Below are positions 3,821 to 28,184 of a DNA stretch of 28,971 bases, piece after piece. Source of the DNA: a virus. The stretch lies in the IMG/VR virus record IMGVR_UViG_3300009159_000228, positions 1-28,971 of that record; one strand, written 5' to 3'. Position 1 is the first letter of the stretch, and each line of letters begins with the position of its first letter. The notes below the pieces were generated by a model. That model saw only the letters and a program-made list of their open reading frames with translations. It was not told the DNA's origin and searched no databases. Made by a program: the position numbers and the translations under genes.

Positions 3821-4110
3821 TGACCGATCAAGAATTTATTCAGCTGCTGAATGAAGTAGCTAAAAAAGCCAGGCCTTTCAATAGCGAGGTTCGGCAAATT
3901 GACTCGATGGACATGATCCTTAAGGAAACTGGCTTAGACAGCCTTGACATGCTGATGTGCATAGTTTACCTTTGCGAGATCTACGACGTAGAAGACGAAA
4001 AAAGCAAAGAGATGCTGGGCGAGACCCCGCAAGATCTTTTTAACTTCCTGAAGGAATGGGGACGCCGACAGCCAGCTGACCTAGACCAAGCAAGGGAGTG
4101 GTTCGTATGA
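3820..4110 (+). CDS. Acyl carrier protein
   Basis: This 96-aa acidic helical protein has the ACP signature TGLDSLDM. Ser41, in Asp-Ser-Leu, is the expected 4'-phosphopantetheine attachment site. Helix II follows (LDMLMCIVYLCEIYDVE), with the acidic recognition face usual for ACPs, and the C-terminal ETPQDLFNFLKEW matches the TVQAAIDYI helix of bacterial ACP. Typical ACPs have 75-85 residues; this one has a short extra tail. The ATG overlaps the upstream stop (TAATG); an upstream TTG at 3787 in frame is less likely. Its stop overlaps the start of the ketosynthase (ATGA). No phosphopantetheinyl transferase is visible, so the host enzyme would have to activate it. Fold and site are clear; the partner pathway is inferred. 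Confidence 0.88.
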   Translation: MTDQEFIQLLNEVAKKARPFNSEVRQIDSMDMILKETGLDSLDMLMCIVYLCEIYDVEDEKSKEMLGETPQDLFNFLKEWGRRQPADLDQAREWFV

Positions 4111-5228
4111 GAATCTTCCTCACCGAAAGCCGCACTGCGTGCACTGAGGACACGACTCTCTTTGAGAACCACACCTTTCCCCAAAGGGTTCACTTGTTTC
4201 CTGAGACCTACAACAGGGTCAAGACAGGATTGATCAACCCAGCCCATCAGGTAGCTGAAAAGGTCTTGGATCCCGAGCTTTTAAAGCTCCTCCGAGACAC
4301 CCAACCTGGCCGAACGGCCTTCATCCTGGCAGCCGGCAACAGCAATTTTGCCAACGAAGGCGCCAAACTCAATCGAGAAAATGAATGGACCTACAACTAC
4401 AAGGTCCTTCCATTGTCTCTGACCCAGATCTATGCTGGTCGGGTTGCTGCGCAGTGCGGAGAGATTGATCACACCGCAACGGATGCCACTGCTTGTACAT
4501 CTAGCCTCAAGGCTTTGATGGACGTACAGACCCTGATCAAGTTTTATGGCTTTGACCGGGTAGTTGTACTAGCTATTGAGGACCAGGTCAACAACATGAC
4601 CCTCCAGTTCTTTGGAGAAGCTAAAGCAACCCTGACAGAAAGCATGGCCCAGACTCACCAGGTGGTCCCCAGTGCCTTCGATTCCAAGAACTTTGGGTTC
4701 TATATAGGTCAGGGCGCTGCGTTTGCCGTATTTGAGTCAGAAGACGCTTTAAAGCGGTCAAAGTTACGGGCAAGAGCAGAGCTTTTGTCAGCTTGGACAG
4801 CAACCGAAGTTGCAAAAAACGCCATTGGACAAAGAGAAGATGGACAAGGTTTTAGACGAGCTATCGAGGGCGCGCTCAAACTTTGTCAAATTTCCTCAGA
4901 ACAAATTAAAATCGTAAAAACTCATGGTACCGGTACCAGATCTAACAACGAAGCCGAAAAAGCTGCGCTGGAAGGGTTCTTGAGTGATTTTGTAGCAACA
5001 TCGTACAAGCAACGAATCGGCCATACGATGGGAGCGAGCGGATTGTTAGAGACCCTCTTGCTGTTCAATGATTTAGAAAAGGGAACTGTCCCTGGGATCT
5101 TGAATCGTAGCGAGGAGGATCATGTATTCCTCTCAGAGGCGATTGAAGCACCTGAAGGGGCAGTGTTAAGCTTGAGTGCTGGCATGGGCAACGTGTTCAG
5201 TGCTGCGCTTTTCAACATGAGGATCTAA
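4107..5228 (+). CDS. Beta-ketoacyl-ACP synthase (KAS I/II type)
   Basis: A 373-aa thiolase-fold condensing enzyme. These enzymes join an acyl chain held on the active-site Cys to malonyl-ACP with loss of CO2. The key residues are present: Cys130 in DATACTSS, His273 in KTHGTGTRSNNEAE, and Lys301 with His306 in KQRIGHTMGASG. The C-terminal loop LSLSAGMGN corresponds to the GFGGxN region, though the usual Phe gate is changed. It is shorter than FabF/FabB (about 405-412 aa), mostly by a diverged N-terminus. ATG at 4107 overlaps the ACP stop; an in-frame GTG at 4098 adds only three residues. It is coupled to its likely partner ACP and sits among virion genes. Chain length and product cannot be read from the sequence. 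Confidence 0.9.
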   Translation: MRIFLTESRTACTEDTTLFENHTFPQRVHLFPETYNRVKTGLINPAHQVAEKVLDPELLKLLRDTQPGRTAFILAAGNSNFANEGAKLNRENEWTYNYKVLPLSLTQIYAGRVAAQCGEIDHTATDATACTSSLKALMDVQTLIKFYGFDRVVVLAIEDQVNNMTLQFFGEAKATLTESMAQTHQVVPSAFDSKNFGFYIGQGAAFAVFESEDALKRSKLRARAELLSAWTATEVAKNAIGQREDGQGFRRAIEGALKLCQISSEQIKIVKTHGTGTRSNNEAEKAALEGFLSDFVATSYKQRIGHTMGASGLLETLLLFNDLEKGTVPGILNRSEEDHVFLSEAIEAPEGAVLSLSAGMGNVFSAALFNMRI

Positions 5229-18076: not shown

Positions 18077-19063
18077 ATGTCACATGAAGTTGAAACGATG
18101 GCTTACGCCAATGAGACCCCTTGGCACGGCCTTGGTACCCCTGTCGCTGACAACTTGACTCCTGCCCAGATGCTCGAAGCAGCTGGACTCAACTGGCAAG
18201 TCAAGAAGAAAGCTTTGGTCGTCGACGAACTCGACCACGTGTTGAGCAGCCACTACGCTTTGGTGCGCGACACAGACAGCAAGATCCTTGGCGTCTGCGG
18301 CAGCGACTACAACCCCACACAAAACCAAGAAGTCTTTGAGTTCTTTGACAAGTTCTGCAAAGCCGGCGACATGAAGATGGAGACTGCAGGTTCTCTTCAT
18401 GGCGGCAAGCGTGTTTGGGGCCTTGCAAAGATCAACGGCGGCTTTATGTTGGGCGGCAAAGACGAAGTCGAAGGCTACATCTTGCTCGACAATCCGCACA
18501 TCTGGGGCCGCAGCCTGCAGATCATGTTCACGCCAATCCGCGTTGTTTGCAATAACACGCTGACGGCCGCTCTTCGCGATAATAAAAACAAGGAGAACAC
18601 ATTCCGCATGTCACACGATCGCGCGTTTGACGACGAGATCAAGCAAACTGCTGCGGAAAAAGTTGGCCTTGCAATGAAATCGCTCGACGTGTTCAAGCAG
18701 CAAGCAGAGTTTCTGTCTAAGAAACGCGCTAAAGATCAACAAGTCATGGAATTCTTTTCCAAGCTTGTTAATCCAGACCAATATCAAGCAGCTTTGATTG
18801 CTTCTGAAGATGGTCAAGTCAATCGTTCAGATCTTGGCCGTACGGTCAACCGTTTGATTGACATCGTGCACACCCAACCAGGTGCTGATCTGAAGACTTC
18901 AGCCGGTACTTGGTGGGGCGCATTCAACGCCGTGACGTACTACTACGATCACGTCGCTGGAACTGATCAAGACAAGCGTCTGACAAGCGCGTGGTTTGGT
19001 TCAGCCGCTACTCGTAAACGCCAAGCACTTGACTTAGCCGTCGAGTTCGCTGAAGCAGCCTAA
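18077..19063 (+). CDS. DUF932 phage/plasmid-like protein
   Basis: A 328-aa protein with the N-terminus of the DUF932 / TIGR03299 family: SHEVETMAYANETPWHGLGT, then a LTPAQMLEAAGLNWQVKKK segment. The family is widespread in phages and plasmids, usually as a single copy beside replication genes; its biochemical role is not established. The later part has a conserved PIRVVCNNTLTAAL motif and a Trp-rich GTWWGAFNAVTYYYDH segment near residues 275-290, also typical of the family. Length is usual. It has its own leader (probable promoter upstream) and a strong terminator right after the stop, so it looks like a single-gene unit that may be strongly expressed. Family assignment is firm; function is unknown. 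Confidence 0.88.
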   Translation: MSHEVETMAYANETPWHGLGTPVADNLTPAQMLEAAGLNWQVKKKALVVDELDHVLSSHYALVRDTDSKILGVCGSDYNPTQNQEVFEFFDKFCKAGDMKMETAGSLHGGKRVWGLAKINGGFMLGGKDEVEGYILLDNPHIWGRSLQIMFTPIRVVCNNTLTAALRDNKNKENTFRMSHDRAFDDEIKQTAAEKVGLAMKSLDVFKQQAEFLSKKRAKDQQVMEFFSKLVNPDQYQAALIASEDGQVNRSDLGRTVNRLIDIVHTQPGADLKTSAGTWWGAFNAVTYYYDHVAGTDQDKRLTSAWFGSAATRKRQALDLAVEFAEAA

Positions 19064-19109: not shown

Positions 19110-19964
19110 ATGGCAAACGCCAGAGGAAAGTCTATCGACAACACTCACCTGAGCATTGATCAGGCTGAGGAACGTGGTTTCATTCATAGAGACTACATCG
19201 CCCACTGTCTACGTTGGACGCATGTAGCAAAGTGGATGGGTAACCCTAAACACCGCAAGGATTGCAAGCTGCTTGACATTGGCTGCGGCAAAGACGTACC
19301 ATTGGCAAAGATGCTGATGACCAGTCGTATGGCGTCAGATGGTCTTGACTACATCGGCATTGACTACAACAAGCTTGAAATGCCTAAGGCTTTTGAGAAC
19401 ACCAAGTTCAAGCCTACTCTGATTGGCAACGTGGCCTTCCCAGACTGCAAGTTGCCTCATGAGAAGTTTGACGTCATCACAAGCTTTGAAGTCCTTGAGC
19501 ACGTTGAGCCTTTGCATGCTTACAAGATGCTGGAAGGTATCCGTGATCGCTTGACCGATGACGGCGTTGCCTTCTTGTCTACCCCTGTCTATGACCCACA
19601 AGTCGGCGCAGCAGACAACCACGTCAATGAGATGACCTACGAAGTGATGCAGTTGATGCTTCACAAGGTTGGTTTGGAAGTTGACGACCACTTCGGCACT
19701 TTTGCCTCAATCAAAGACTACAAGGAAATGATCGCCAAAGATGATCTCGATTCAGTGTTCAGCCGCCTGCGTGATTACTACGACAGCAATTACTTGGCAA
19801 CTATATTTGCCCCCTTATATCCTCACCGTTCTCGAAACGTGCTCTGGCGGGTCAAACTGCCGAAAAATACTGAGATGTTTAGCGCAGGCAAATTTGCAGA
19901 CCTCACAAAGCCCCTGTCAAGCAGCGAAGCCTGGCAGCCACTCTTTGACTACCTTGGAGAGTAA
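19110..19964 (+). CDS. Class I SAM-dependent methyltransferase
   Basis: A 284-aa protein with a Rossmann-type methyltransferase core. Motif I is KLLDIGCGKD (Leu55 to Gly60 binding SAM), the next strand ends in GIDYNK (near 83), and the post-core motif ITSFEVLEHVEP (near 127) is typical of the Methyltransf_11/23 group that acts on small molecules or proteins. DPPY- or PC-type DNA methylase motifs are absent, so DNA methylation is not supported. AGGAG lies 7 bases before ATG. The gene heads the nucleotide operon: the MazG-like gene starts two bases after its stop. Substrate is unknown; neighbours hint at nucleotides, but virion or RNA targets are equally possible. Confidence 0.8.
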   Translation: MANARGKSIDNTHLSIDQAEERGFIHRDYIAHCLRWTHVAKWMGNPKHRKDCKLLDIGCGKDVPLAKMLMTSRMASDGLDYIGIDYNKLEMPKAFENTKFKPTLIGNVAFPDCKLPHEKFDVITSFEVLEHVEPLHAYKMLEGIRDRLTDDGVAFLSTPVYDPQVGAADNHVNEMTYEVMQLMLHKVGLEVDDHFGTFASIKDYKEMIAKDDLDSVFSRLRDYYDSNYLATIFAPLYPHRSRNVLWRVKLPKNTEMFSAGKFADLTKPLSSSEAWQPLFDYLGE

Positions 19965-19966
19965 CC

Positions 19967-20356
19967 ATGGATCTGTCAAAGATGGTAGCAGAGTTTCACC
20001 AGAAGTTTGGGCTGGAACCGACTGCACAGCCTGACTTTCCGGTGAGGGAGATCTGGGAGCTTAAGAACGCTCATCTGCAAGAAGAGTTGAACGAGATCAG
20101 AGCAGCAGCAATCAACGGCAACTTGGAAGAGTATTTTGACGGCCTGATTGACTTGGTCTATGTAGCTCTTGGGGCAGCCTACTTATCAGGCTTGCCCTTT
20201 GACGAGGGCTTCAAAAGGGTGCATGAAGCAAACATGAAAAAAGTGCGCGCTTTAAGGCAAGAAGATAGCAAACGCGGGTCTACCTATGATATAGTGAAAC
20301 CTGCAGGATTCGTGGCTCCAACGCTTACGGACCTCATCAGAAAGGAGAAAGAATGA
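19967..20356 (+). CDS. MazG-like nucleotide pyrophosphohydrolase
   Basis: A 129-aa all-helical protein. The pattern LQEELNEIRAA, then about 15 residues later YFDGLIDLVYVALGAAYL, matches the metal-binding ExxE...(E/D)xxD arrangement of the MazG / all-alpha NTP pyrophosphatase superfamily (here with D-x-x-x-D in the second half). These enzymes split dNTPs to dNMP and pyrophosphate; relatives include dCTPases and dUTPases. The phage may use it to clear dCTP or dUTP, supplying dNMP to the enzymes encoded next. Its stop overlaps the kinase start (ATGA). Length fits single-domain family members. The substrate is inferred from the neighbourhood. Confidence 0.75.
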   Translation: MDLSKMVAEFHQKFGLEPTAQPDFPVREIWELKNAHLQEELNEIRAAAINGNLEEYFDGLIDLVYVALGAAYLSGLPFDEGFKRVHEANMKKVRALRQEDSKRGSTYDIVKPAGFVAPTLTDLIRKEKE

Positions 20357-21345
20357 AAGGCATTATTGTCATTGACGGTTGTGATGGAACAGGCAAGACT
20401 ACGCTTGCTGAAGCTATTTGCAAACGCCACGATGGCGTCTACATTCACAACACATATCGCTGGCCTTCAAAGATGCCGCTGTATCACACAGCAGCCTTGC
20501 ATCGTGCATTGAAGTTGTCACGTACACGTTTGGTTGTGATCGATCGCCTTTGGATGAGCGAAGCCATCTATGCAGAGGTGTATCGTAATGGCAGCCCTTG
20601 GCCTCACATGGGTCGCATGATTGATCGCATCATCCGCAAGGTTGGTGGCGTCTACATCTTGACTCAATCACCTGCTAACCATGCTGAAAAGTTTGAGCAG
20701 CTTAAAGGTGAACGCGAAGAGATGTACGACAACGTCGATCATGTTCGCAAGCGCTTTGATGAGTTGTTTGAAGGTGGTTTGTCTGGTCATGACTATGACT
20801 ATGCACAACAGCTGTCTGTGTTTGGTATGCGCAATCGTGATGATGTGCTGCCATATCGCTACGACGTTGAAGGCACCAATCTTGATGTCTACATTGACAT
20901 GGTGATGTCTGTCCTTCAATCACGATTGATGAAGCAATATGAGCCTGCTTTGCACTTGCACACCAAGAACTTTGCAGGTCACTTGCATGAAGCCAATATC
21001 ATCTTTGTAGGTGACAAGGCCAACAGCAAGATGCGTGCAGTCAGCTGGCCTTTCTACGACTTTGGCAATTGCAGCGAATTCTTTGCTGATGCTTTGCATT
21101 CATTATCCTTTGATGAGACTAGAGCAATCTACATCAACGCGCATGATGGCAATGGTCCTTTGTACGTCAATGATTGCTTACGCGCAAAGCCTTACATGAA
21201 GGTCATCTGCTTTGGCAATCAGGCTTACGACACCATGAGCGAATTCACTCGCAAGATTCATAAGGTCATGCATCCATCTTATGCAAAGCGCTTCAACAAG
21301 CGTCAAGAGTTTTTACTACAACTTGAGGAGGTCATCAATGGTTAA
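20353..21345 (+). CDS. dNMP (thymidylate-type) kinase fused to UDG-like domain
   Basis: A 330-aa protein with two parts. Residues 1-195 are a thymidylate-kinase-like P-loop kinase: Walker A GCDGTGKTT (9-17), and VVIDRLWMSEAIYAEVYR resembling the DRxxxSxxAYQ substrate motif. Residues about 210-330 look like the uracil-DNA glycosylase superfamily: IIFVGDKANSK...SWPF (motif 1 region), YINAHD, VICFGNQAYDTM, and KVMHPSYAKRF (the HPS motif). Single-domain TMP kinases are about 200-215 aa, so the extra 120 residues are a genuine second domain. SD AAAGGAG precedes the ATG. The substrate may be dTMP or a modified dCMP, as with T4 gp1 kinase (inference from neighbours). The UDG-like part may be a nucleotide-binding or repair module. 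Confidence 0.75.
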   Translation: MKGIIVIDGCDGTGKTTLAEAICKRHDGVYIHNTYRWPSKMPLYHTAALHRALKLSRTRLVVIDRLWMSEAIYAEVYRNGSPWPHMGRMIDRIIRKVGGVYILTQSPANHAEKFEQLKGEREEMYDNVDHVRKRFDELFEGGLSGHDYDYAQQLSVFGMRNRDDVLPYRYDVEGTNLDVYIDMVMSVLQSRLMKQYEPALHLHTKNFAGHLHEANIIFVGDKANSKMRAVSWPFYDFGNCSEFFADALHSLSFDETRAIYINAHDGNGPLYVNDCLRAKPYMKVICFGNQAYDTMSEFTRKIHKVMHPSYAKRFNKRQEFLLQLEEVING

Positions 21346-22132
21346 CACAACCAACATGAACTGGCAAGGCTTGTTAGATGTCATCATGAACAGTGGCATT
21401 GATACCAGCCCACGTGGAAAACGTACAAAGGAACTGATGGGCTTCAAGTCAATGATTGACATGAACCAGCCTGTTATCACGATCAAGGAGCGCAATCTTG
21501 GCTACAAGTTTATGGCAGCTGAAGCAGCATGGATCATGGCTGGCGATAACCGCGTCAGCACAATTGCCCCGTTTAGCAAACAGATCAGCAACTTCTCTGA
21601 CGACGGTATCCTTTTCTTTGGCGCCTATGGACCAAGAATACGCGATCAACTGTCTCACGTGGTTCAGTCGTTACTCGGTGATCCAGACACGCGTCAAGCT
21701 GTCATCACCATTTGGCGGCCAAACCCTCGTGCGTCAAGAGACATCCCATGCACCATCAGCTGCCAGTTCGTTATCCGGATGGGCATGATCCATTGCTTCA
21801 TGAACATGCGTTCTTCTGATGCTTGGCTTGGCGTGCCTTATGACTGGTTCAACTTTAGTATGCTGTCAGCCGGTGTTGCGTTGATGCTGCGTGAGAAAGG
21901 CATGAACGTCAAGCTTGGTGCCTTGCACTTCTATGCAGCAAGCCAGCACTTGTATGAAGAGAATTGGGACAAGGTAGAGCCTTGTTTGTCAGGTGAGATT
22001 CTTGGCGACTATGAGCCAATCAATCTTAATGACTTTAATGACTACGACCACCTGGTCAATCACTTGTGGGCCGTGGCTTATGGAACATCTAAGAACGGTT
22101 TTCTCAAGGAATTATCAACATGGAAAGGATGA
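21338..22132 (+). CDS. Thymidylate-synthase-family enzyme, probable dCMP hydroxymethylase
   Basis: A 264-aa protein starting at ATG 21338 (SD GAGGAGG; 8-base overlap with the kinase stop). Conserved family features: SPRGKRTKEL (phosphate loop), the general-base Glu in AAEAAWIMAG, GAYGPRIRD, DPDTRQAVITIWRP, catalytic Cys138 in DIPCTISCQF, NMRSSDAWLG, and LHFYAASQHLYEENW. In E. coli ThyA the position after LGLPF is Asn177, which picks dUMP; here it is Asp169 (LGVPYDWFNF). T4 dCMP hydroxymethylase also has Asp there, and shares the RP and NMRS features. So dCMP is the likely substrate and CH2-THF the donor, giving hydroxymethyl- or methyl-dCMP. Ordinary thymidylate synthase remains the alternative. 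Confidence 0.78.
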   Translation: MVNTTNMNWQGLLDVIMNSGIDTSPRGKRTKELMGFKSMIDMNQPVITIKERNLGYKFMAAEAAWIMAGDNRVSTIAPFSKQISNFSDDGILFFGAYGPRIRDQLSHVVQSLLGDPDTRQAVITIWRPNPRASRDIPCTISCQFVIRMGMIHCFMNMRSSDAWLGVPYDWFNFSMLSAGVALMLREKGMNVKLGALHFYAASQHLYEENWDKVEPCLSGEILGDYEPINLNDFNDYDHLVNHLWAVAYGTSKNGFLKELSTWKG

Positions 22133-22626
22133 ACAGAGATGAATACTTTTCGGAATTGGCTTTACTCGTTGCTCGAAGAGCCACTTGCGCTAGGCGGAGT
22201 GTGGGCTGCGTTCTCATATCTTCTCGTGGGCATGTTCTCAGTACTGGTTATAACGGGGTGCCTCGTGGTCATACTCATTGCACTGACGTTCGCTGTCCCG
22301 GTGCTTCTTTGCCTTCGGGGACTGGCTTGGATGTATGTGAAGCTATTCATGCGGAACAGAACGCCCTCCTCCAATGCAAAGACGTGGATCAAATAGATAC
22401 CGCTTATGTCACGGCTATGCCATGCATGACCTGTATGAAATTGCTCTTGAACACAAGCTGCAGGCGCATCGTGTATGTGTCTGATTACCCTCACCAAGAA
22501 GCAAAACAACTTTGGATAAAAAATGGACGAATCATCATATCAACCGCCGAAGCACTTTCCCAATCTGCTGCTAGCAAAGCGAATAGCTATCGATTGCGAG
22601 ACGCGCGACCCGAACTTAATGACTAA
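22120..22626 (+). CDS. dCMP deaminase
   Basis: A 168-aa zinc-dependent cytidine/deoxycytidylate deaminase. His77-Ala-Glu79 (IHAEQNAL) and Pro101-Cys102-x-x-Cys105 (AMPCMTCMK) supply the zinc ligands and catalytic Glu. STGYNGVPRGHTHC followed by CEAIHAE is typical of dCMP rather than cytidine deaminases. It converts dCMP to dUMP and is allosterically controlled by dCTP/dTTP in relatives. ATG 22120 has AAGGA 9 bases upstream; ATG 22129 (ATGA overlap) is too close to its AGG. The last 35 or so residues lie in the region shared with the polymerase gene and have no family counterpart I can recognise. In T4 the same enzyme occurs with gp42. Confidence 0.87.
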   Translation: MERMNRDEYFSELALLVARRATCARRSVGCVLISSRGHVLSTGYNGVPRGHTHCTDVRCPGASLPSGTGLDVCEAIHAEQNALLQCKDVDQIDTAYVTAMPCMTCMKLLLNTSCRRIVYVSDYPHQEAKQLWIKNGRIIISTAEALSQSAASKANSYRLRDARPELND

Positions 22627-24385
22627 AGGACCTGGCGGTGTAAGAAAAGACGGCTATATTGTTGGATTTTCTGTGGCTACAGACGATGGATTTGCTGAGT
22701 ACTATCCTGTCCGTCATGCAGCAGGCGGGAACCTCAACCCCGACAATGCGTTTGCTTGGCTTCGTGACATGCTGAAAACAGACATTCCAAAGGTGGGCGC
22801 AAATTTGCCTTACGACTTGGAATGGTTGCTAACAGAGAATGTCAAGGTCGGTGGTCCTAAGTACGACGTGCAGATTGCAGAACCTTTGCTTGATGAAGAT
22901 CGCATCACATACAAGCTTGATGCCTTGGCGCAGTCTTACCTTGGCGAGACAAAAGACGAGACGGCTTTGATTGCAGCAGCAGTCAGACGCGGTATTCATC
23001 CTAGCAAGGTCAAAGAAAACCTCTGGCAGTTCCACGCTTCTGAAGTGGCTCCTTACGGACGCAAAGACGCAGACCTGCCGATTCGTATCTTTGCCCAACA
23101 AGAAGTCTTGCTGCACGACGAAAAGCTCTGGGAAGTCTTTGACATTGAGACGCAGCTTGTCGATGTATTGGTAGCAATGCGTCAACGTGGGGTTCCTGTC
23201 GATCTAGACCGCGCCCAAAAAGTCAAGGCTCAGTTACTTGATGAGCAAGGCAAGCTCACGGAGCAGTTGAAGAAGGTTGCAGAGCGGGATATAGACATCT
23301 GGTCTGGTGACGATATACAGGCAGCCAGTGACGCATTGAAGCTGGATTACCCAAAGACTGAAAAGGGGAATGCTAGTTTTCCCAGTGAGTTTCTTGAAGC
23401 TAGTGAACATGAATTTTTCTCCTTGATTTCGAAGGTCCGGAAGCTTGACCGGGCCGGTGGAGTATTTATCGACAGCAAGATCATTCAGATGGAAAAAGAT
23501 GGCAAGATTTACCCAACATTCAGACAGGTCAGAGACGATCGAGGCGGCACAAAGTCGGGGCGTTTTGCGTCGTCTAATCCGAACATGCAGCAGGTACCAG
23601 CTCGAGATCCGGTGCTCGCGCCTCTTATTCGAAGCATCTTTGTACCAGAAGAAGGTTGCCAATGGGGTGTCTTTGACTACTCGCAGCAAGAGCCTCGTGT
23701 CACGGTTCACTACAGCTACCTACGGAATTTTCCTGGAGCTGAGACGGCGCGTAACCGTTACCTCGATGACCCTGATACTGACTATCATCAGCTGGTTGCA
23801 GACATGGCTGGAATCAGTCGAAAGAATGCGAAGACGCTAAACCTTGGATTGGCCTACGGTATGGGAGCAGCCAAGGCAGCCACTCAACTTGGTTTGCCGC
23901 CAGCTGAAGCCAAACGCGTCTACGAGCAATACCACGCCAACGTGCCATTCATCAAGGCACTTGGTGAGGAATGCACACGGATTGCAACGAACAGGGGCTA
24001 TGTTAAGACGTTCTTAGGACGGCGCCGTAGGTTCCAGTTGTTTGGTCCACCGAAGTACAGCCCGGGTCTTATTCCATTGAAGAAAGACTTGGCTGAAGAG
24101 AAGTACGGCTTGCCCTTAAAGCGTTACTTTGTCCACAAGGCAATGAACGCGGTGATCCAGGGTTCGTCGGCAGACATGATCAAGATGGCGATGATCAACT
24201 TGTTCAAAAAAGGCGAAGTTCCTCATCTGACTATTCACGATGAATTGGACTTCAGTGTACGGGACTTGGATCATGCCCGAATGATTCGTCAGGAGATGTT
24301 GACATGCGTGGACTTGGTCGTGCCATTGAAAGTAGATTGCGAGCTTGGACCCAATTGGGGAGAAGCGGTGGAGGTGAAGCTATGA
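22523..24385 (+). CDS. Family A DNA polymerase with 3'-5' exonuclease
   Basis: A 620-aa phage replicative polymerase. Exonuclease: Exo I IAIDCETRDP (Asp24, Glu26), Exo II GANLPYDLEWL and Exo III YGRKDADL. Polymerase: motif A VFDYSQQEPRV (Asp385), motif B (O helix) RKNAKTLNLGLAYG (433-446) and motif C IHDELDF (His572-Asp573-Glu574). The 5'-3' exonuclease of bacterial Pol I is absent, as in T7. The position matching E. coli Phe762 is Leu441, a natural variant that phage ecology studies link to temperate or slower-replicating phages. The ATG must lie upstream of Asp24, so the gene overlaps the deaminase by 104 bases. The stop overlaps the nuclease start (ATGA). Fold and activity are very well supported. 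Confidence 0.95.
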   Translation: MDESSYQPPKHFPNLLLAKRIAIDCETRDPNLMTKGPGGVRKDGYIVGFSVATDDGFAEYYPVRHAAGGNLNPDNAFAWLRDMLKTDIPKVGANLPYDLEWLLTENVKVGGPKYDVQIAEPLLDEDRITYKLDALAQSYLGETKDETALIAAAVRRGIHPSKVKENLWQFHASEVAPYGRKDADLPIRIFAQQEVLLHDEKLWEVFDIETQLVDVLVAMRQRGVPVDLDRAQKVKAQLLDEQGKLTEQLKKVAERDIDIWSGDDIQAASDALKLDYPKTEKGNASFPSEFLEASEHEFFSLISKVRKLDRAGGVFIDSKIIQMEKDGKIYPTFRQVRDDRGGTKSGRFASSNPNMQQVPARDPVLAPLIRSIFVPEEGCQWGVFDYSQQEPRVTVHYSYLRNFPGAETARNRYLDDPDTDYHQLVADMAGISRKNAKTLNLGLAYGMGAAKAATQLGLPPAEAKRVYEQYHANVPFIKALGEECTRIATNRGYVKTFLGRRRRFQLFGPPKYSPGLIPLKKDLAEEKYGLPLKRYFVHKAMNAVIQGSSADMIKMAMINLFKKGEVPHLTIHDELDFSVRDLDHARMIRQEMLTCVDLVVPLKVDCELGPNWGEAVEVKL

Positions 24386-24789
24386 AGGAAAGCCAGTTTT
24401 GGGCTCTGGTCAAAGGCAAGCTGCCAGGCCACGTGGAACGCGTTGAGAACGCCTTGACAAGAGGAACTCCAGACGTGAACATGTGCCATGAAGGCAGCGA
24501 GCTTTGGCTAGAGTTAAAAGTCTTGGATGCCAAAGGCAAATGTGAGTTGCGTCCTGAACAGGTCCTATGGCACCGTAAGCGTCAGGAAAGTGGAGGACGT
24601 GTATTCGTACTCGCTCGCAACGAAAATGTCCTAAAGGTACTCCAGATTCAGCGAGAGATGGATCTCTATGAGATATGGACTTGCACCAAGCCATTTGATT
24701 GGGAGAACATGAACAACCTACTTTTTAACGTGCCGCCTTTTTGCACTGAATATGTTGTGCGTCATGCACAAGTTGGAGGACAACAATGA
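24382..24789 (+). CDS. VRR-NUC type nuclease
   Basis: A 135-aa protein starting at ATG 24382 (ATGA overlap with the polymerase stop; SD GGAGG). It has the PD-(D/E)xK pattern of the VRR-NUC family: RGTPDVNMCHEGSELWLELK gives Asp plus Glu-x-Lys, then LRPEQVLWHRKRQESGG with the conserved Gln, and a last strand RVFVLAR. Family members are structure-specific nucleases, including Holliday-junction resolvases and the phage T7 gp3-like role in branch resolution. The gene lies beside replication genes, so DNA branch processing or recycling of host DNA is likely. An in-frame upstream ATG at 24304 lies inside the polymerase and is less plausible. Confidence 0.8.
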   Translation: MKESQFWALVKGKLPGHVERVENALTRGTPDVNMCHEGSELWLELKVLDAKGKCELRPEQVLWHRKRQESGGRVFVLARNENVLKVLQIQREMDLYEIWTCTKPFDWENMNNLLFNVPPFCTEYVVRHAQVGGQQ

Positions 24790-25103
24790 CAGTCTATGTC
24801 GTACAAGAATCGCCGAAGTTTAACCTGCTGCCCGCTGCGGAGTATGGAGACCTTCAAACATTGCTGCCACCAGGACAAGTGATGATGGCCACTGCGCCAA
24901 CCATCCGCGTCTTGCGTGACAAGCTTAGGAGTTTTTCGGACAGCGATTTTCTGCTGGCTATTGGGGATCCCATTGCCATCGGTATGTCCGTCGCAATTGC
25001 TGCTGGCTTCAATAGCGGCAAGATCAGGATGCTGAAATGGGATCGCCAAGAGCATCGTTACTACGCCCTTGAGGCGGACCTTACAGGAGCACGAAATGCT
25101 TGA
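24786..25103 (+). CDS. Conserved phage protein, unknown function
   Basis: This 105-aa protein begins in an ATGA overlap with the nuclease stop and ends overlapping the next gene by 8 bases. It has a short strand-helix-strand order: NLLPAAEYGDLQTLLPPGQ, then SDFLLAIGDPIAIGMSVAIA, with IRMLKWDRQEHRYYALEADL at the end. The middle IGDP(I/A)AIGxxxAIA and end LKWDRQxxxYxxxxxDL look like a conserved family in phage replication modules, but I know no function. There is no signal peptide or membrane segment I would trust; the central helix is only mildly hydrophobic. Coupling suggests that it works with the nuclease or polymerase. Confidence 0.75.
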   Translation: MTVYVVQESPKFNLLPAAEYGDLQTLLPPGQVMMATAPTIRVLRDKLRSFSDSDFLLAIGDPIAIGMSVAIAAGFNSGKIRMLKWDRQEHRYYALEADLTGARNA

Positions 25104-25644
25104 AGATGAAATGTTAGCCGACAGTCAGATGCCATCTGATCAAGGCTTGGGCAAGATCAGTACGCTTGCAGAGCGATACACAGATCTTGATGAAGAGATT
25201 AAGGACACGGAAACGCGTCTGAAGCTCTTAAAAGAACAGGCTAGGGAGATTGCTGAGAAGCAGTTGCCTGATGCTATGGCAGAAGTTGGTGTGGCTAAGT
25301 TTACGCTTACAGACGGCAGTGAAGTGACCGTCAAACCGTATTACAGCGCCAAGATCAGTGACGATAAACGTGAAGAGTGCTTTGGCTGGTTGGAAGACCA
25401 TGGCCACGAGGCGCTAATCAAAGACGAAGTCGTCCTGACATTCAATCGCGGTGAGCACGAGAAGGCCGAAGAATTCAAAGCCCAGCTGTTAGAGCAAGGC
25501 ATGGATTATTCTGGCAAGATGGGTGTTCATCCTCAGACTTTGACAGCATTCGTCAAAGAGCAAGTGGAAAGCGGAGCCGAATTTCCTCTTGAACTTTTCA
25601 ACGTTTATATCGGCCAAATTGCCAAAATCAAAAGGAGTAAGTGA
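25096..25644 (+). CDS. Conserved phage replication-module protein with coiled coil
   Basis: Start taken as ATG 25096 (SD AGGAG, overlap ATGCTTGA with the upstream stop), giving 182 aa; an in-frame ATG at 25069 would add nine residues but has no good SD. The N-terminal third (YTDLDEEIKDTETRLKLLKE onward) is a strongly charged heptad-type coiled coil. It is followed by FTLTDGSEVTVKPYYSAKI, a strand-rich part, and DKREECFGWLEDHGHEALIK, then a helical C-terminus. Proteins of this layout are common in environmental phages next to SSB-like genes. No catalytic motif is seen. A DNA-binding or replication accessory role is a reasonable guess from location only. Confidence 0.72.
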   Translation: MLEDEMLADSQMPSDQGLGKISTLAERYTDLDEEIKDTETRLKLLKEQAREIAEKQLPDAMAEVGVAKFTLTDGSEVTVKPYYSAKISDDKREECFGWLEDHGHEALIKDEVVLTFNRGEHEKAEEFKAQLLEQGMDYSGKMGVHPQTLTAFVKEQVESGAEFPLELFNVYIGQIAKIKRSK

Positions 25645-26411
25645 TGGTTAAGAAAACTGAAGTGGCTGTACAGCAGCCGACCGCCCTAGTGGCATTTGCA
25701 GACGACATGATGGCAGACGCAGGTCTCGGTTTCGAGAACGTGTCCGCGAATGATGTCGCTATCCCGTACCTCAAGGTGCTGCAGGCTTTATCGCCTGAAC
25801 TTCGTGGAGTCACCAAAGTTGCTGGTGCTGAAGAGGGCTTGATCATCAACACCGTCACCGGTGTGCTGATGAAAGAAGTCCGCGTCATCCCTTGCGCCTT
25901 TAAGAAGAGCTATGTTGAATGGACTCCTCGTGAAGCTGGCGGCGGATTGGTCAAAGAATGGACTGACGAGAAGATTCTCGAAAAGACCAAGAAGAACGAA
26001 CGCAACCAAGATGTCTTGGCCAATGGCAACCTGATCGTCACCACTGCGTATCACTACGTGTTGGTGTTGTCTGAAGGTGGCTTTGAACGTGCCTTGATTG
26101 CAATGTCTTCGACGCAGCTTAAGAAGTCACGCCGCTGGCTTGGTCAGATGATGGCCTTGCAAGTCAAGGTTGGCGACAAGTCATTCACGCCTCCGCCGTT
26201 TAGCCATAGCTACCACTTGGGAACAGGCATGGAGACTAAGGATGCCAACAGCTGGTATGGTTGGTTGATCAACGATCCAAGCATGGTTCAAGATCGTGGC
26301 GTCTACGACGCAGCTAAAAAGTTTGGTTCAGACGTAACCGCTGGACTTGTGAAAGTTGCTGAGCCTCCGCAAGAAGGTATTGCAGCTGCTGATGACGATG
26401 TTCCTTACTAA
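25644..26411 (+). CDS. Probable phage ssDNA-binding-like protein
   Basis: A 255-aa protein starting at ATG 25644 (TGATG with the previous stop; SD AAAGGAG six bases away; GTG 25641 is possible). The N-terminal DVAIPYLKVLQALSPELRGV, then GLIINTVTGVLMKEVRVIPC and SYVEWTPREAGGGLV, is a recurrent phage pattern (IPxLxILQxxSPE...vIPCxYxxxxVEW). The C-terminus is ADDDVPY, nearly the DDDIPF tail by which bacterial SSBs recruit repair and replication partners. No OB-fold hallmark can be proved by eye. Neighbouring polymerase, nuclease and primase fit an SSB role. I infer a T7 gp2.5-like function; a recombination mediator is the alternative. Confidence 0.6.
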   Translation: MVKKTEVAVQQPTALVAFADDMMADAGLGFENVSANDVAIPYLKVLQALSPELRGVTKVAGAEEGLIINTVTGVLMKEVRVIPCAFKKSYVEWTPREAGGGLVKEWTDEKILEKTKKNERNQDVLANGNLIVTTAYHYVLVLSEGGFERALIAMSSTQLKKSRRWLGQMMALQVKVGDKSFTPPPFSHSYHLGTGMETKDANSWYGWLINDPSMVQDRGVYDAAKKFGSDVTAGLVKVAEPPQEGIAAADDDVPY

Positions 26412-26660: not shown

Positions 26661-28184
26661 ATGCTTGCACAAAGATTCATGGCGCTATTTTCCGGGCACA
26701 CAGGTGCTTACGGAACCTATGACATCGATGGCAAGAATACTGGCCTAAAGGTTCAGGGGACAGCAATCACAAAGAGGGCGCCGGTAACGGAGCAGCTATG
26801 GGATGGCCACCTAGCAGGGACAAAAGGAATCGGTATTGTGCCAATCAGAGAGGACAACACATGCCTCTTTGGTGCGATTGACATTGATGAATATAAGAAC
26901 TTTGACCTTAAGGATGCCGTTGAAGCTTGCGCCAAAGCCAAGGCTCCAGTAGCGGTCTGCCGCAGCAAGTCTGGAGGCGCGCACATCTACATGTTTTTCA
27001 GCGAGCCGATACCGGCTGCTGATGTCAAACGAAAGCTTGCTGATCTGGCCACTGTGATCGGCCATCCAAGCTGCGAGATCTTTCCTAAACAAGATCAAGT
27101 GTTGTCTGAACGCGGTGACGTCGGCAACTGGATCAATATGCCTTACTTCGAAGGCGACCAAACATCTAGATACGGGGTTGCTGAGAACGGCGGCCCGATG
27201 AATATAGACGATTTTTTAGTATTTGCTGAAGGTCTCAAGCTTACAAGGGCAAACTTCGTACGCCTGAAGTTTGCAGAGTCTAAGAGCAAGAAGAGAGCGT
27301 ATAAGGATGCTCCTCCATGCATCGAGAAGTTAGCTCAAACAGGCTTCCCTGAAGGTACACGAAACAATGGTCTGTTCAACCTGTGCGTCTTGGCAAGAAA
27401 GATGAAACCAGATGACTGGCAGCCGCTAGTCATGCAGATGAACATAGACATCATGGATCCTCCGCTGCCTGAGTCAGAAGCAATGGGGGTCATTCAATCG
27501 ATGCAGAACAGTGACTATCAGTACACGTGCAGCAGGCCGCCACTACGACCTAACTGCAACGCTGGAATGTGCCGCATGCGTAAGTTTGGCGTGGGCCAGC
27601 AATCAGGAACGCCACGACTATCATCACTGAGCAAGTACAACACGGAACCTCCCATCTGGTTCCTTGATATGGACAACGGAATGCGCTTGTCTTTGTCTAC
27701 AGAAGATCTGCAGAATCAGGCTGGCTTCCAAAAGAGATGTATGGAGGCAATGAATTACATGCCGCCAAAGATGAACCTAATGCAATGGAATCAAATGATC
27801 CAGGCGCTGCTGCAAGACGTAGTGATCATTGAGGCTCCTGAGGATGCTAGTCCTAAGGGCCAGTTCATCGACCTGTTAGAACGTTATTGCACAGGCAAGG
27901 CGCAGGCCAAGCATCTTGACGAGATCCTTCTTGGCAAACCATTCCATGACCGTGATGACAACCGCCACCTGTTTAGGCTGGCAGACTTCATCAACTTCCT
28001 TGACAAGCAGAAGTTTAAGGAATTCAAGCTCAATCAGATCAGTTCTGCTATTCGTGACTACGGCGGTGAAACGCATACCTATAAGCTGAACGGGAAACGT
28101 GCCACTGTCTGGTCTGTGCCAGCCTTCTCCTTCCAGGATAAAGGCCATCAGACTCCGGACTTCAGCAATGGCAGCCTCATCTAA
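26661..28184 (+). CDS. Archaeo-eukaryotic-type primase (AEP, TOTE-type domain)
   Basis: A 507-aa protein whose N-terminal third is an AEP primase. LFGAIDIDEY holds Asp74 and Asp76 of the metal-binding DxD; VCRSKSGGAHIYMFF holds the SGGxH motif (His108); and EIFPKQDQV with GNWINMPYF carries the third conserved part. The same domain occurs in TOTE conflict systems, but here it stands without that system's nuclease. A Cys cluster, YTCSRPPLRPNCNAGMCRM (near residue 290), may bind zinc, as in primase C-terminal regions. The C-terminal part is unclassified. It would make primers for the phage polymerase. It overlaps the helicase start by 17 bases. Confidence 0.85.
   Translation: MLAQRFMALFSGHTGAYGTYDIDGKNTGLKVQGTAITKRAPVTEQLWDGHLAGTKGIGIVPIREDNTCLFGAIDIDEYKNFDLKDAVEACAKAKAPVAVCRSKSGGAHIYMFFSEPIPAADVKRKLADLATVIGHPSCEIFPKQDQVLSERGDVGNWINMPYFEGDQTSRYGVAENGGPMNIDDFLVFAEGLKLTRANFVRLKFAESKSKKRAYKDAPPCIEKLAQTGFPEGTRNNGLFNLCVLARKMKPDDWQPLVMQMNIDIMDPPLPESEAMGVIQSMQNSDYQYTCSRPPLRPNCNAGMCRMRKFGVGQQSGTPRLSSLSKYNTEPPIWFLDMDNGMRLSLSTEDLQNQAGFQKRCMEAMNYMPPKMNLMQWNQMIQALLQDVVIIEAPEDASPKGQFIDLLERYCTGKAQAKHLDEILLGKPFHDRDDNRHLFRLADFINFLDKQKFKEFKLNQISSAIRDYGGETHTYKLNGKRATVWSVPAFSFQDKGHQTPDFSNGSLI

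Follow-up and report, generated by a model that had tools for sequence, protein, structure and literature searches.

A viral five-gene cassette for probable cytosine replacement with a candidate O-methyltransferase of hydroxymethylcytosine

Phage T4 removes dCTP, makes 5-hydroxymethyl-dCMP, phosphorylates it, and deaminates spare dCMP. To our knowledge, the hydroxymethylcytosine (hmC) of phages is tailored further with sugars or with a carbamoyl group, and we know of no natural DNA in which 5-methoxymethylcytosine has been described. In phage Xp12, 5-methylcytosine (5mC) is established. Cassettes with a 5hmC carbamoyltransferase have been reported from the MetaGPA work (PMC8670742); their order can be written X-MazG-kinase-TS-deaminase, where X is an O-carbamoyltransferase and the thymidylate synthase (TS)-family protein has Asp at two diagnostic sites. 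The same paper reports that contigs obtained by selection for modified cytosine are associated with TS Asp177 and with domains of the PRA-PH and dCMP deaminase types. Its main text does not contain the word "methyltransferase" (the whole record has five occurrences), and among the papers listed by searches of the PMC literature, we found no report of a methyltransferase of the family described here acting on hmC and no title on methoxymethylcytosine in DNA. Stenotrophomonas phage AXL3 and Pseudoxanthomonas phage PW916 have the very set and order of five genes that we discuss below, at 24 to 50% protein identity. There, the genes are annotated as methyltransferase, NTP pyrophosphohydrolase, thymidylate kinase, thymidylate synthase, and dCMP deaminase, which their authors read as thymidylate synthesis. 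Of 37 restriction enzymes, only two cut AXL3 DNA, and their sites consist of A and T alone; the phage carries ThyX besides its TS-family gene (PMC7504290).

The window analyzed here, a 28,971-nucleotide stretch of viral DNA, carries this cassette on its plus strand. The initial annotation had placed four genes in a row, and all four are present where it put them, each matched by a Pfam profile and with starts and stops overlapping as it described. They encode a MazG-like NTP pyrophosphohydrolase of 129 amino acids (19967 to 20356; PF01503, E = 8.8e-14; phrog_671, E = 6e-24), a P-loop nucleotide kinase of 330 amino acids with a fused C-terminal domain (20353 to 21345; PF02223, E = 7.3e-6, just under the cut-off; phrog_761, E = 4.6e-11), a TS-family enzyme (21338 to 22132; PF00303, E = 3.5e-21), and a dCMP deaminase of 168 amino acids (22120 to 22626; PF00383, E = 1.8e-21; phrog_174, E = 6.6e-37). 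The cassette has five genes, however, not four: a gene for a SAM-dependent methyltransferase of 284 amino acids and class I fold (19110 to 19964; PF13489, E = 9.4e-14) adjoins the MazG-like gene, with 2 bases between stop and start. A family A DNA polymerase gene follows (22523 to 24385; PF00476, E = 8.1e-59); its open reading frame overlaps the deaminase gene, and its start is uncertain. The TS gene had been given as the open reading frame 21281 to 22132. The gene is real, but its true start is very probably the ATG at 21338, since GAGGAGG (21324 to 21330) lies just 5′ of it as a ribosome-binding site and four related loci (L003, L011, L013, and L016) carry an in-frame stop ahead of the equivalent point. 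From this start the protein has 264 amino acids, and its gene shares 8 bases with that of the kinase.

Alignment places the catalytic Cys of the TS-family enzyme at 21749 to 21751 (T4 gp42 Cys148), an Asp three residues before it at 21740 to 21742 (gp42 Asp145), and the dCMP-selecting Asp, correctly picked out in the initial annotation, at 21842 to 21844 (gp42 Asp179, E. coli TS Asn177), all on the plus strand. Both Asp residues are found in 14 of 14 aligned family members; canonical TS from the PDB (n = 3) have Asn and Leu at the two positions. In gp42 itself, the D145N change stops hydroxymethylation. Roles have been described for the dCMP-selecting Asp (PMC8670742, PMC5175136) and for Asp145, and the published rule for hydroxymethylases is Asp or Glu three before the catalytic Cys (PMC6400193). 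The best PDB match of the protein is the CMP 5-hydroxymethylase MilA (E = 1e-22). An ordinary supply of dTMP would fit the database names, and the AXL3 authors read genes 27 to 29 in this way, as thymidylate synthase, kinase, and dCMP deaminase (PMC7504290). We consider this highly improbable, given that Asp replaces the dUMP-selecting Asn and that AXL3, with ThyX at its disposal, has DNA on which 35 of the 37 enzymes fail (PMC7504290).

The dCMP-selecting Asp is also present in the TS of 5mC-type phages, and the neighbors are similar: the Xp12 group (AXL1, PaMx28, and Mallos) has the dCMP-type TS, a PRA-PH protein, and dCMP deaminase in common with the window. Nevertheless, we give a 5mC pathway of this kind very little credence. 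In 11 of 11 5mC-type enzymes, the residue three before the Cys is Asn, and these enzymes keep a TS-like C-terminal tail; the window enzyme has Asp, and its C terminus is unlike that tail and longer than that of gp42. A dihydrofolate reductase (DHFR) gene like that of AXL1 was found in three of four 5mC-type records compared to none of 46 cassette-type records, an absence to be expected if tetrahydrofolate (THF) is not oxidized in the reaction. PF00186 proved of no use as a DHFR test, because even the DHFR of 5mC-type records escaped it, and the AXL1 protein served as the query instead. The methyltransferase and carbamoyltransferase of the cassette families were found in none of 11 5mC-type loci (three of them under 9 kb). 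Published digests differ as well, with KpnI and Eam1105I partly cutting AXL1 DNA and leaving AXL3 DNA uncut. The choice between 5hmC and 5mC, left open initially, is thus narrowed to 5hmC by Asp versus Asn and by the distribution of DHFR. With Asp rather than Asn three before the Cys, the likely product of the TS-family enzyme is 5-hydroxymethyl-dCMP.

Taken at the level of sequence, hydroxymethylation of dCMP by the cassette is well supported, and these phage genes very probably swap DNA cytosine for hydroxymethylcytosine. That dCMP is the substrate and cytosine is replaced had been suggested already; it agrees with Asp at both diagnostic sites, with the resistance of AXL3 DNA, which comes with the same cassette (PMC7504290), and with the domains published for modified-cytosine contigs (PMC8670742). 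The resemblance to T4 lies in the logic of the pathway and, for gp42, in the catalytic Cys and both diagnostic Asp residues. It does not extend to the enzymes as such: the window TS belongs to another branch, the kinase has an extra uracil-DNA-glycosylase-like domain, the genes form a single five-gene operon, and a methyltransferase replaces the glucosyltransferase. One element of the published signature of hydroxymethylases is also missing: two residues ahead of the catalytic Tyr, where that signature calls for Ser or Thr (Ser94 in T4), the window enzyme has Gly, as does the carbamoyltransferase-linked TS of locus L177. We therefore regard the window TS as working like gp42, without filing it in the gp42 subfamily.

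The pathway had also been called reduced, with no glucosyltransferase in sight. The T4 beta-glucosyltransferase family, PF09198, was found in none of 48 records by a search that recovers it in T4 itself (E = 1e-99), and a sister genome (G001; 55 kb, with a 144-base terminal repeat) has no match to PF09198, PF00534, or PF00535. We do not see a cut-down pathway here. The upstream methyltransferase occupies the slot held in sister cassettes by the 5hmC carbamoyltransferase, and the absent glucosyltransferase is therefore no gap. In locus L177 exactly this slot is filled by the carbamoyltransferase, a match at E = 3e-89 to the 5hmC carbamoyltransferase that has been assayed, and of the 10 carbamoyltransferase loci in which all five families occur, 9 show the order X-MazG-kinase-TS-deaminase.

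What might the methyltransferase do? Its AlphaFold2 model is confident (mean pLDDT, 92.1), but a structure search could not name the family, since 995 of 1,000 class I chains reached Z scores of at least 8, with CmoM at the top and HEN1 at rank 28. Profile matches include bacterial Hen1 (3jwi, E = 5.1e-11) and the O-methyltransferase UbiG (E = 1.9e-11); the Hen1 match reaches 45 bits, on a par with UbiG and with a protein lysine methyltransferase, and is limited to about residues 36 to 202. Hen1 enzymes, the RNA 3′-end 2′-O-methyltransferases, also share a metal quartet (Glu-x-x-Glu-His ... His) with the window protein. Here, the putative site consists of E127, E130, and H131 in EVLEH (19488 to 19502, plus strand), aligned with EVIEH of 3jwi, and H171 (19620 to 19622, plus strand), aligned with the His of RDHRFEW; in plant HEN1, the metal residues are Glu796, Glu799, His800, and His860 (PMC10781085). 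The quartet is complete in 80 of 80 relatives (the best 80 of a larger number), all with His at the H171 position. It was counted in the distant set, for which the search pattern lies outside EVLEH, unlike other patterns that include part of it. Hen1 and UbiG differ from the window family in gene context, and the family has terminal motifs of its own, HRDY..H..RW at the N terminus and FAP..P..RN..W at the C terminus. Relatives without a nearby TS have the quartet as well, so it marks the chemistry and not the substrate.

For the substrate, we turn to linkage across viral loci. The locus sets share contigs, and each was taken from the top of a longer list, with 80 loci at most; the methyltransferase type itself is widespread, with 317 and 395 matching stretches (overlapping and partly examined) that amount to hundreds of viral contigs. 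Among the best 80 methyltransferase-similar loci, all five families are present in 51, and in 50 of these they lie in a single order on the same strand within 7 kb, a conserved five-gene order far beyond chance. A TS gene is found in 68 of these 80 IMG/VR loci (67 with both Asp residues, one unreadable); in the other 12, the sequence ends within 1.6 kb after the methyltransferase. Five of 50,697 records in a "phages" database match the methyltransferase, all five with the cassette (AXL3 is there twice, and one of its two records was examined). In a more distant sample, again the best 80, TS is present in 57, with both Asp residues in 57 of 57. Of the remaining 23 loci, 22 were followed through their entire records: a two-Asp TS lies elsewhere in 8, and 14 have no TS in the available sequence. 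Most of these 14 are short and three are of 57 to 64 kb, two of them at 57 to 59 kb. One of the three has its methyltransferase in common with a 90-kb record in which TS is present. Of 58 carbamoyltransferase loci examined, 49 have TS, with both Asp residues in 49 of 49. Methyltransferase and carbamoyltransferase were never found together (0 of the best 80 methyltransferase loci and 0 of the 58 carbamoyltransferase loci), although this exclusion is partly lineage-bound and does not consist entirely of independent events.

The TS partners of the methyltransferase span lineages, and one is gp42-like (L089, beside T4 gp42 with support of 95). Mapping the methyltransferase label onto a TS tree requires 11 changes, of which starred branches force at least 6. 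Methyltransferase and carbamoyltransferase alternate on this tree; L157, with the former, and L177, with the latter, are sisters with support of 98. This was a quick tree, with 41 of 107 forks open; thinning at 80% identity took the 154 TS rows to 118, rows whose state was undecidable (10) were left out, and L203 was removed from alignment A7 for its doubtful frame.

Given the metal quartet, the linkage to two-Asp TS, and the slot shared with the carbamoyltransferase, we infer that the methyltransferase O-methylates hmC, giving 5-methoxymethylcytosine. Overall, the locus is probably a cytosine-replacement cassette with this enzyme as its own tailoring activity. The MazG-like enzyme, a putative dCTP remover, would hydrolyze dCTP to dCMP. 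From dCMP, methylene-THF, and water, the TS-family enzyme would make 5-hydroxymethyl-dCMP, the step that the residues support, and the kinase is proposed to phosphorylate modified dCMP on its way to the triphosphate. The deaminase, by its family, would turn spare dCMP into dUMP for dTMP, and the phage polymerase may incorporate hmC in place of C, which fits the AXL3 digestion data. The Hen1-like, metal-dependent methyltransferase would then act on the hydroxyl of hmC, in the nucleotide or in DNA, where sister cassettes have O-carbamoylation of the same hydroxyl.

A plain hmC phage, like T4 without the sugar, in which the methyltransferase is a neighbor with some other job, for instance at RNA 3′ ends like Hen1, seems rather unlikely to us but deserves consideration. 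The hydroxymethylase evidence is independent of the methyltransferase, Pelagibacter-type loci have of the cassette set only kinase and TS, and 14 distant methyltransferase records have, as noted, no TS in the available sequence. Moreover, both tailoring genes are absent from 32 of the best 80 TS loci, so plain hmC or other tailoring is possible in some. On the other hand, its loci link the methyltransferase to two-Asp TS from several lineages, and it sits where sister cassettes have an enzyme with known activity on 5hmC. The likeness to Hen1 is confined to the matched residues, and a general annotation scan of the window genes revealed no RNA-repair partner (Pnkp or Rnl).

It is also conceivable, if improbable, that the methyltransferase acts in the pathway at another atom, giving N4-methyl-hmC or a change at some other position, or on another pathway nucleotide. 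Linkage reveals the pathway, not the atom, and class I methyltransferases act on O, N, C, and S. A Hen1/UbiG-type metal site, however, is typical of hydroxyl methylation (PMC10781085), and none of 61 methyltransferase members has a Pfam match to DNA N-methyltransferase families.

Returning to O-methylation of hmC, we imagine a broader picture that we hold to be about evenly balanced: 5-methoxymethylcytosine replaces cytosine, the position ahead of MazG-kinase-TS-deaminase is a slot for interchangeable hmC tailoring enzymes, and the methyltransferase has moved between hydroxymethylase lineages, one of them gp42-like. Its variants would place O-methyl (the window) or O-carbamoyl (L177 among others) on hmC, and in L176 and L220 perhaps an amino acid, added by a PLP enzyme. 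If so, the methoxymethyl base would be a DNA letter as yet undescribed, and methyl the smallest cap for hmC, costing one SAM. The cap would put the hydroxyl out of reach of glucosyltransferase-like or hmC-targeting defenses, and detection of hmC by glucosylation would miss the capped base. The residues at the two diagnostic sites give a rule for telling phages that make hmC from those that make 5mC in metagenomes, and the present reading corrects a "thymidylate synthesis" annotation that hides DNA modification.

Two families were also scored across the 48 records. PF02543, for the carbamoyltransferase, was found in one, with none in the sister genome, and ThyX was above the cut-off in four, all of them methyltransferase-bearing.

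The kinase has a feature of its own. Its AlphaFold2 model is confident (mean pLDDT, 94.0), and its kinase likeness is confined to the first part, for which Foldseek finds YorR (2axp) and deoxyadenosine kinase (2jat). The C-terminal half has no match in Pfam, PF02223 included, or NCBIfam. By Foldseek and profile comparison, about residues 196 to 330 (20938 to 21342, plus strand) have a uracil-DNA-glycosylase-like fold, with matches to UdgX (8iiq, E = 1.6e-4) and the uracil-DNA glycosylase TM0511 (1vk2, E = 1.7e-4; by profile, E = 0.019). The search for distant kinases covered 18 loci only. This glycosylase-like domain is present in 56 of 60 kinases of the methyltransferase set compared to 0 of 25 of the carbamoyltransferase set.

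The window, an entire IMG/VR record of 28,971 bases, is a fragment of a tailed phage, and the four genes that the initial annotation read as a T4-like modified-cytosine pathway, encoding a MazG-like protein, a kinase, a thymidylate synthase (TS)-family enzyme, and dCMP deaminase, were confirmed by domain and family matches. They are the last four in a row of five, in which the first encodes a class I SAM methyltransferase (19110-19964) with its stop 2 bases ahead of the MazG-like gene. For TS, the most likely start codon is at 21338, preceded by GAGGAGG, rather than the earliest ATG in the frame. Just upstream of the methyltransferase is a DUF932/TIGR03299 protein (18077-19063), also found near the cassette in the metagenomic genome ctUtU524. 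A sister contig, G001 (55,067 bases), encodes cassette proteins 99 to 100% identical to those of the window, with DNA identity of 91 to 97% in five larger aligned pieces and 83% in one short piece; it looks complete because of its 144-base direct terminal repeat (one mismatch). The lack of a glucosyltransferase, first reported for the window, extends to G001 for glycosyltransferase families 1 and 2 and T4 beta-glucosyltransferase, and neither ThyX nor carbamoyltransferase had a match there.

The closest PDB match of the window TS is MilA, a CMP 5-hydroxymethylase (E 1e-22). All 14 aligned members of its family have Asp at the positions of both the cytosine-selecting Asp179 and Asp145 (three before the catalytic Cys) of T4 gp42, which we call two-Asp TS. 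In T4, Asp145 is reported to activate water, D145N is dead, and Asp145, Ser94, and Tyr96 have been proposed as a hydroxymethylation signature (PMC6400193). The window enzyme has the Asp and the Tyr, with Gly at the Ser94 position; S94A is described as keeping about 25% residual activity (PMC6400193). When this residue rule was tried on TS of known kinds, SPO1 gp29 (annotated as a dUMP hydroxymethylase) and phage Sonora TS paired Asn at the selecting position with Asp three residues ahead of the Cys. The reverse, Asp at the selecting position with Asn three residues ahead of the Cys, held for 11 of 11 enzymes of 5-methylcytosine (5mC)-type phages (AXL1, PaMx28, Mallos, and eight IMG/VR relatives), all with the TS-like C-terminal tail kept. 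Replacement of C by 5mC is established for Xp12, the namesake of this group. For AXL1, 5mC is given as an inference of its authors (AXL1 paper). According to record annotations, DHFR adjoins TS in 5mC-type phages, which need it because methylation oxidizes folate; the AXL1 DHFR found a match in three of four 5mC-type records and in none of 46 cassette-type records. The two Asp residues and the contrast with 5mC-type TS and DHFR lead us to predict hydroxymethyl-dCMP as the product of the window enzyme, and hydroxymethylation of dCMP is very likely its activity.

The methyltransferase belongs to the cassette. A search of 50,697 phage records at E 1e-5 gave five matches to it, each in a cassette phage, with AXL3 counted twice. 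Among the best 80 of 317 IMG/VR relatives, 68 loci have a TS gene, with both Asp residues in 67; the remaining TS is cut, with one site unreadable. The 12 loci lacking TS all break off no more than 1.6 kb beyond the methyltransferase. Partner TS genes come from several lineages: the window type, a gp42-like type (loci L089, L092, and L094), and two other types (L091, L095, and L098-L103; L120, L123, L125, and L126). In a more distant sample (best 80 of 395), TS was present in 57 loci, always two-Asp. For 22 of the remaining 23, a broad TS profile was run over the entire record; 8 had TS, all two-Asp, and 14 had none within the sequence present, mostly 10 to 40 kb. These TS-less distant records are the main result against the linkage, and the real exceptions among them are G051 (64 kb), G059 (57 kb), and G060 (59 kb); the G051 methyltransferase is common to G052 (90 kb), which has TS. 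One distant branch (L361-L366, L378, and L379) has the methyltransferase immediately upstream of what we read as the gene for the large terminase subunit, with no TS alongside; the open frame at 4329 of L379 resembles ThyX in our reading.

What, then, might the methyltransferase modify? Contigs selected for modified cytosine are reported to be associated with TS with Asp177, PRA-PH, and dCMP deaminase domains and often to have a carbamoyltransferase, for which 5hmC carbamoylation was shown (PMC8670742). Of 48 two-Asp TS records, 40 have the methyltransferase, and G029 alone has a carbamoyltransferase without it. There (locus L177), the carbamoyltransferase, 35% identical to the assayed 5hmC enzyme (E 3e-89), sits exactly in the place directly upstream of the MazG-like gene, followed by kinase, TS, and deaminase. 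Among 58 loci fetched via the carbamoyltransferase, none has the methyltransferase; 49 have TS, two-Asp in all 49, and the order is the same in 9 of the 10 with all five families. Conversely, no carbamoyltransferase was found in either set of 80 methyltransferase loci (best 80 of 317 and best 80 of 395) or in 18 loci from a distant-kinase search. Across 80 TS loci, 47 have the methyltransferase, 1 (L177) the carbamoyltransferase, none both, and 32 neither. A tree was built from 110 TS rows, of which 61 come from methyltransferase loci, 39 from carbamoyltransferase loci, and 8 from loci with neither; the other two are gp42 and gp29. It requires 11 changes of the methyltransferase label, and well-supported branches impose at least 6 of these. 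The methyltransferase locus L157 pairs with L177 as its sister, and another methyltransferase locus, L089, is placed as the sister of T4 gp42. Since the two enzymes swap at a single position ahead of a shared pathway, they most likely share a target atom, the hydroxyl of hmC, and the methyltransferase probably tailors hmC. Two other TS cassettes, L176 (4832-6989) and L220 (5359-7433), have neither enzyme; ahead of the kinase they encode a PLP-dependent enzyme (phrog_7093, PF00291) together with a protein of 380 to 393 aa that matched no family confidently, perhaps a third kind of tailoring.

A profile of 61 methyltransferase relatives gave as best solved matches a protein lysine methyltransferase, UbiG, and bacterial Hen1 (E 1.4e-11 to 5.7e-11). 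UbiG is an O-methyltransferase. In the Hen1 alignment, EVLEH of the methyltransferase falls on EVIEH, and H171 falls on the RDHRFEW His; the corresponding plant HEN1 residues (Glu796, Glu799, His800, and His860) are described as binding the metal that holds the substrate hydroxyls (PMC10781085). The putative metal quartet is complete in 80 of 80 relatives and in all 8 sequences aligned from the most divergent group. The structure prediction is of high confidence (mean pLDDT 92.1); comparison with the PDB identifies a class I methyltransferase and nothing more specific. These features suggest a metal-dependent O-methyltransferase, and gene linkage points to its substrate. On balance, we lean toward O-methylation of the hmC side chain, which would give 5-methoxymethylcytosine.

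Similarity to YorR, deoxyadenosine kinase, and thymidylate kinase covers the N-terminal part of the kinase; the C-terminal domain (135 residues, 20938-21342) is like the uracil-DNA glycosylase fold (UdgX, family 4). Of the kinases in the methyltransferase set (best 80 of 317 loci), 56 of 60 have this domain, against none of 25 in the carbamoyltransferase set; among kinase-bearing loci of the TS set, it occurs in 41 of 46 that have the methyltransferase and in 3 of 26 others. L157, with methyltransferase and a short kinase, is an exception to this pairing. Our guess is that the domain might discard wrong bases or nucleotides, such as hmU from deaminated hmC.

The five genes are in the same order in phages AXL3 and PW916 and the metagenomic genomes ctUtU524 and ct3Et533. 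The kinase gene is lacking in the annotations of PW916 and ctUtU524, where open frames of 326 aa (L019, 2319-3299) and 305 aa (L021, 8100-9017), respectively, lie between the neighbors. External data speak for modified DNA. Of 37 enzymes reported as tried on AXL3 DNA, only TasI and Tru1I, with A/T-only sites, cut; its authors suspected modified bases, yet took the cassette genes for thymidylate synthesis, despite ThyX also being present (PMC7504290). DNA of the 5mC-type AXL1 is reported to be cut by 5 of 31 enzymes, KpnI and Eam1105I partially (AXL1 paper), and both failed on AXL3 DNA (PMC7504290).

Phage hmC pathways with tailoring are of an already known kind; if confirmed, the methoxymethylated base itself would be new. 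Elsewhere in the window, the best NCBIfam match of a family A DNA polymerase (22523-24385) is the aminoadenine-incorporating polymerase DpoZ (E 3e-93; 313 bits, below the 500-bit cutoff), and a primase (26661-28184) has a TOTE-type archaeo-eukaryotic primase domain (PF22548, E 1.8e-20). At 24786-26411 and 105-758 are a block related to phage Pam3 gp32-gp34 (PF23992, PF23984, and PF23977) and an SU10-type adaptor (PF24175). Beta-ketoacyl synthase domains (PF02801, E 1.4e-16; PF00109, E 5.3e-8) occur in a protein encoded amid virion genes (4098-5228; phrog_35856), an odd site for a fatty-acid-type enzyme.
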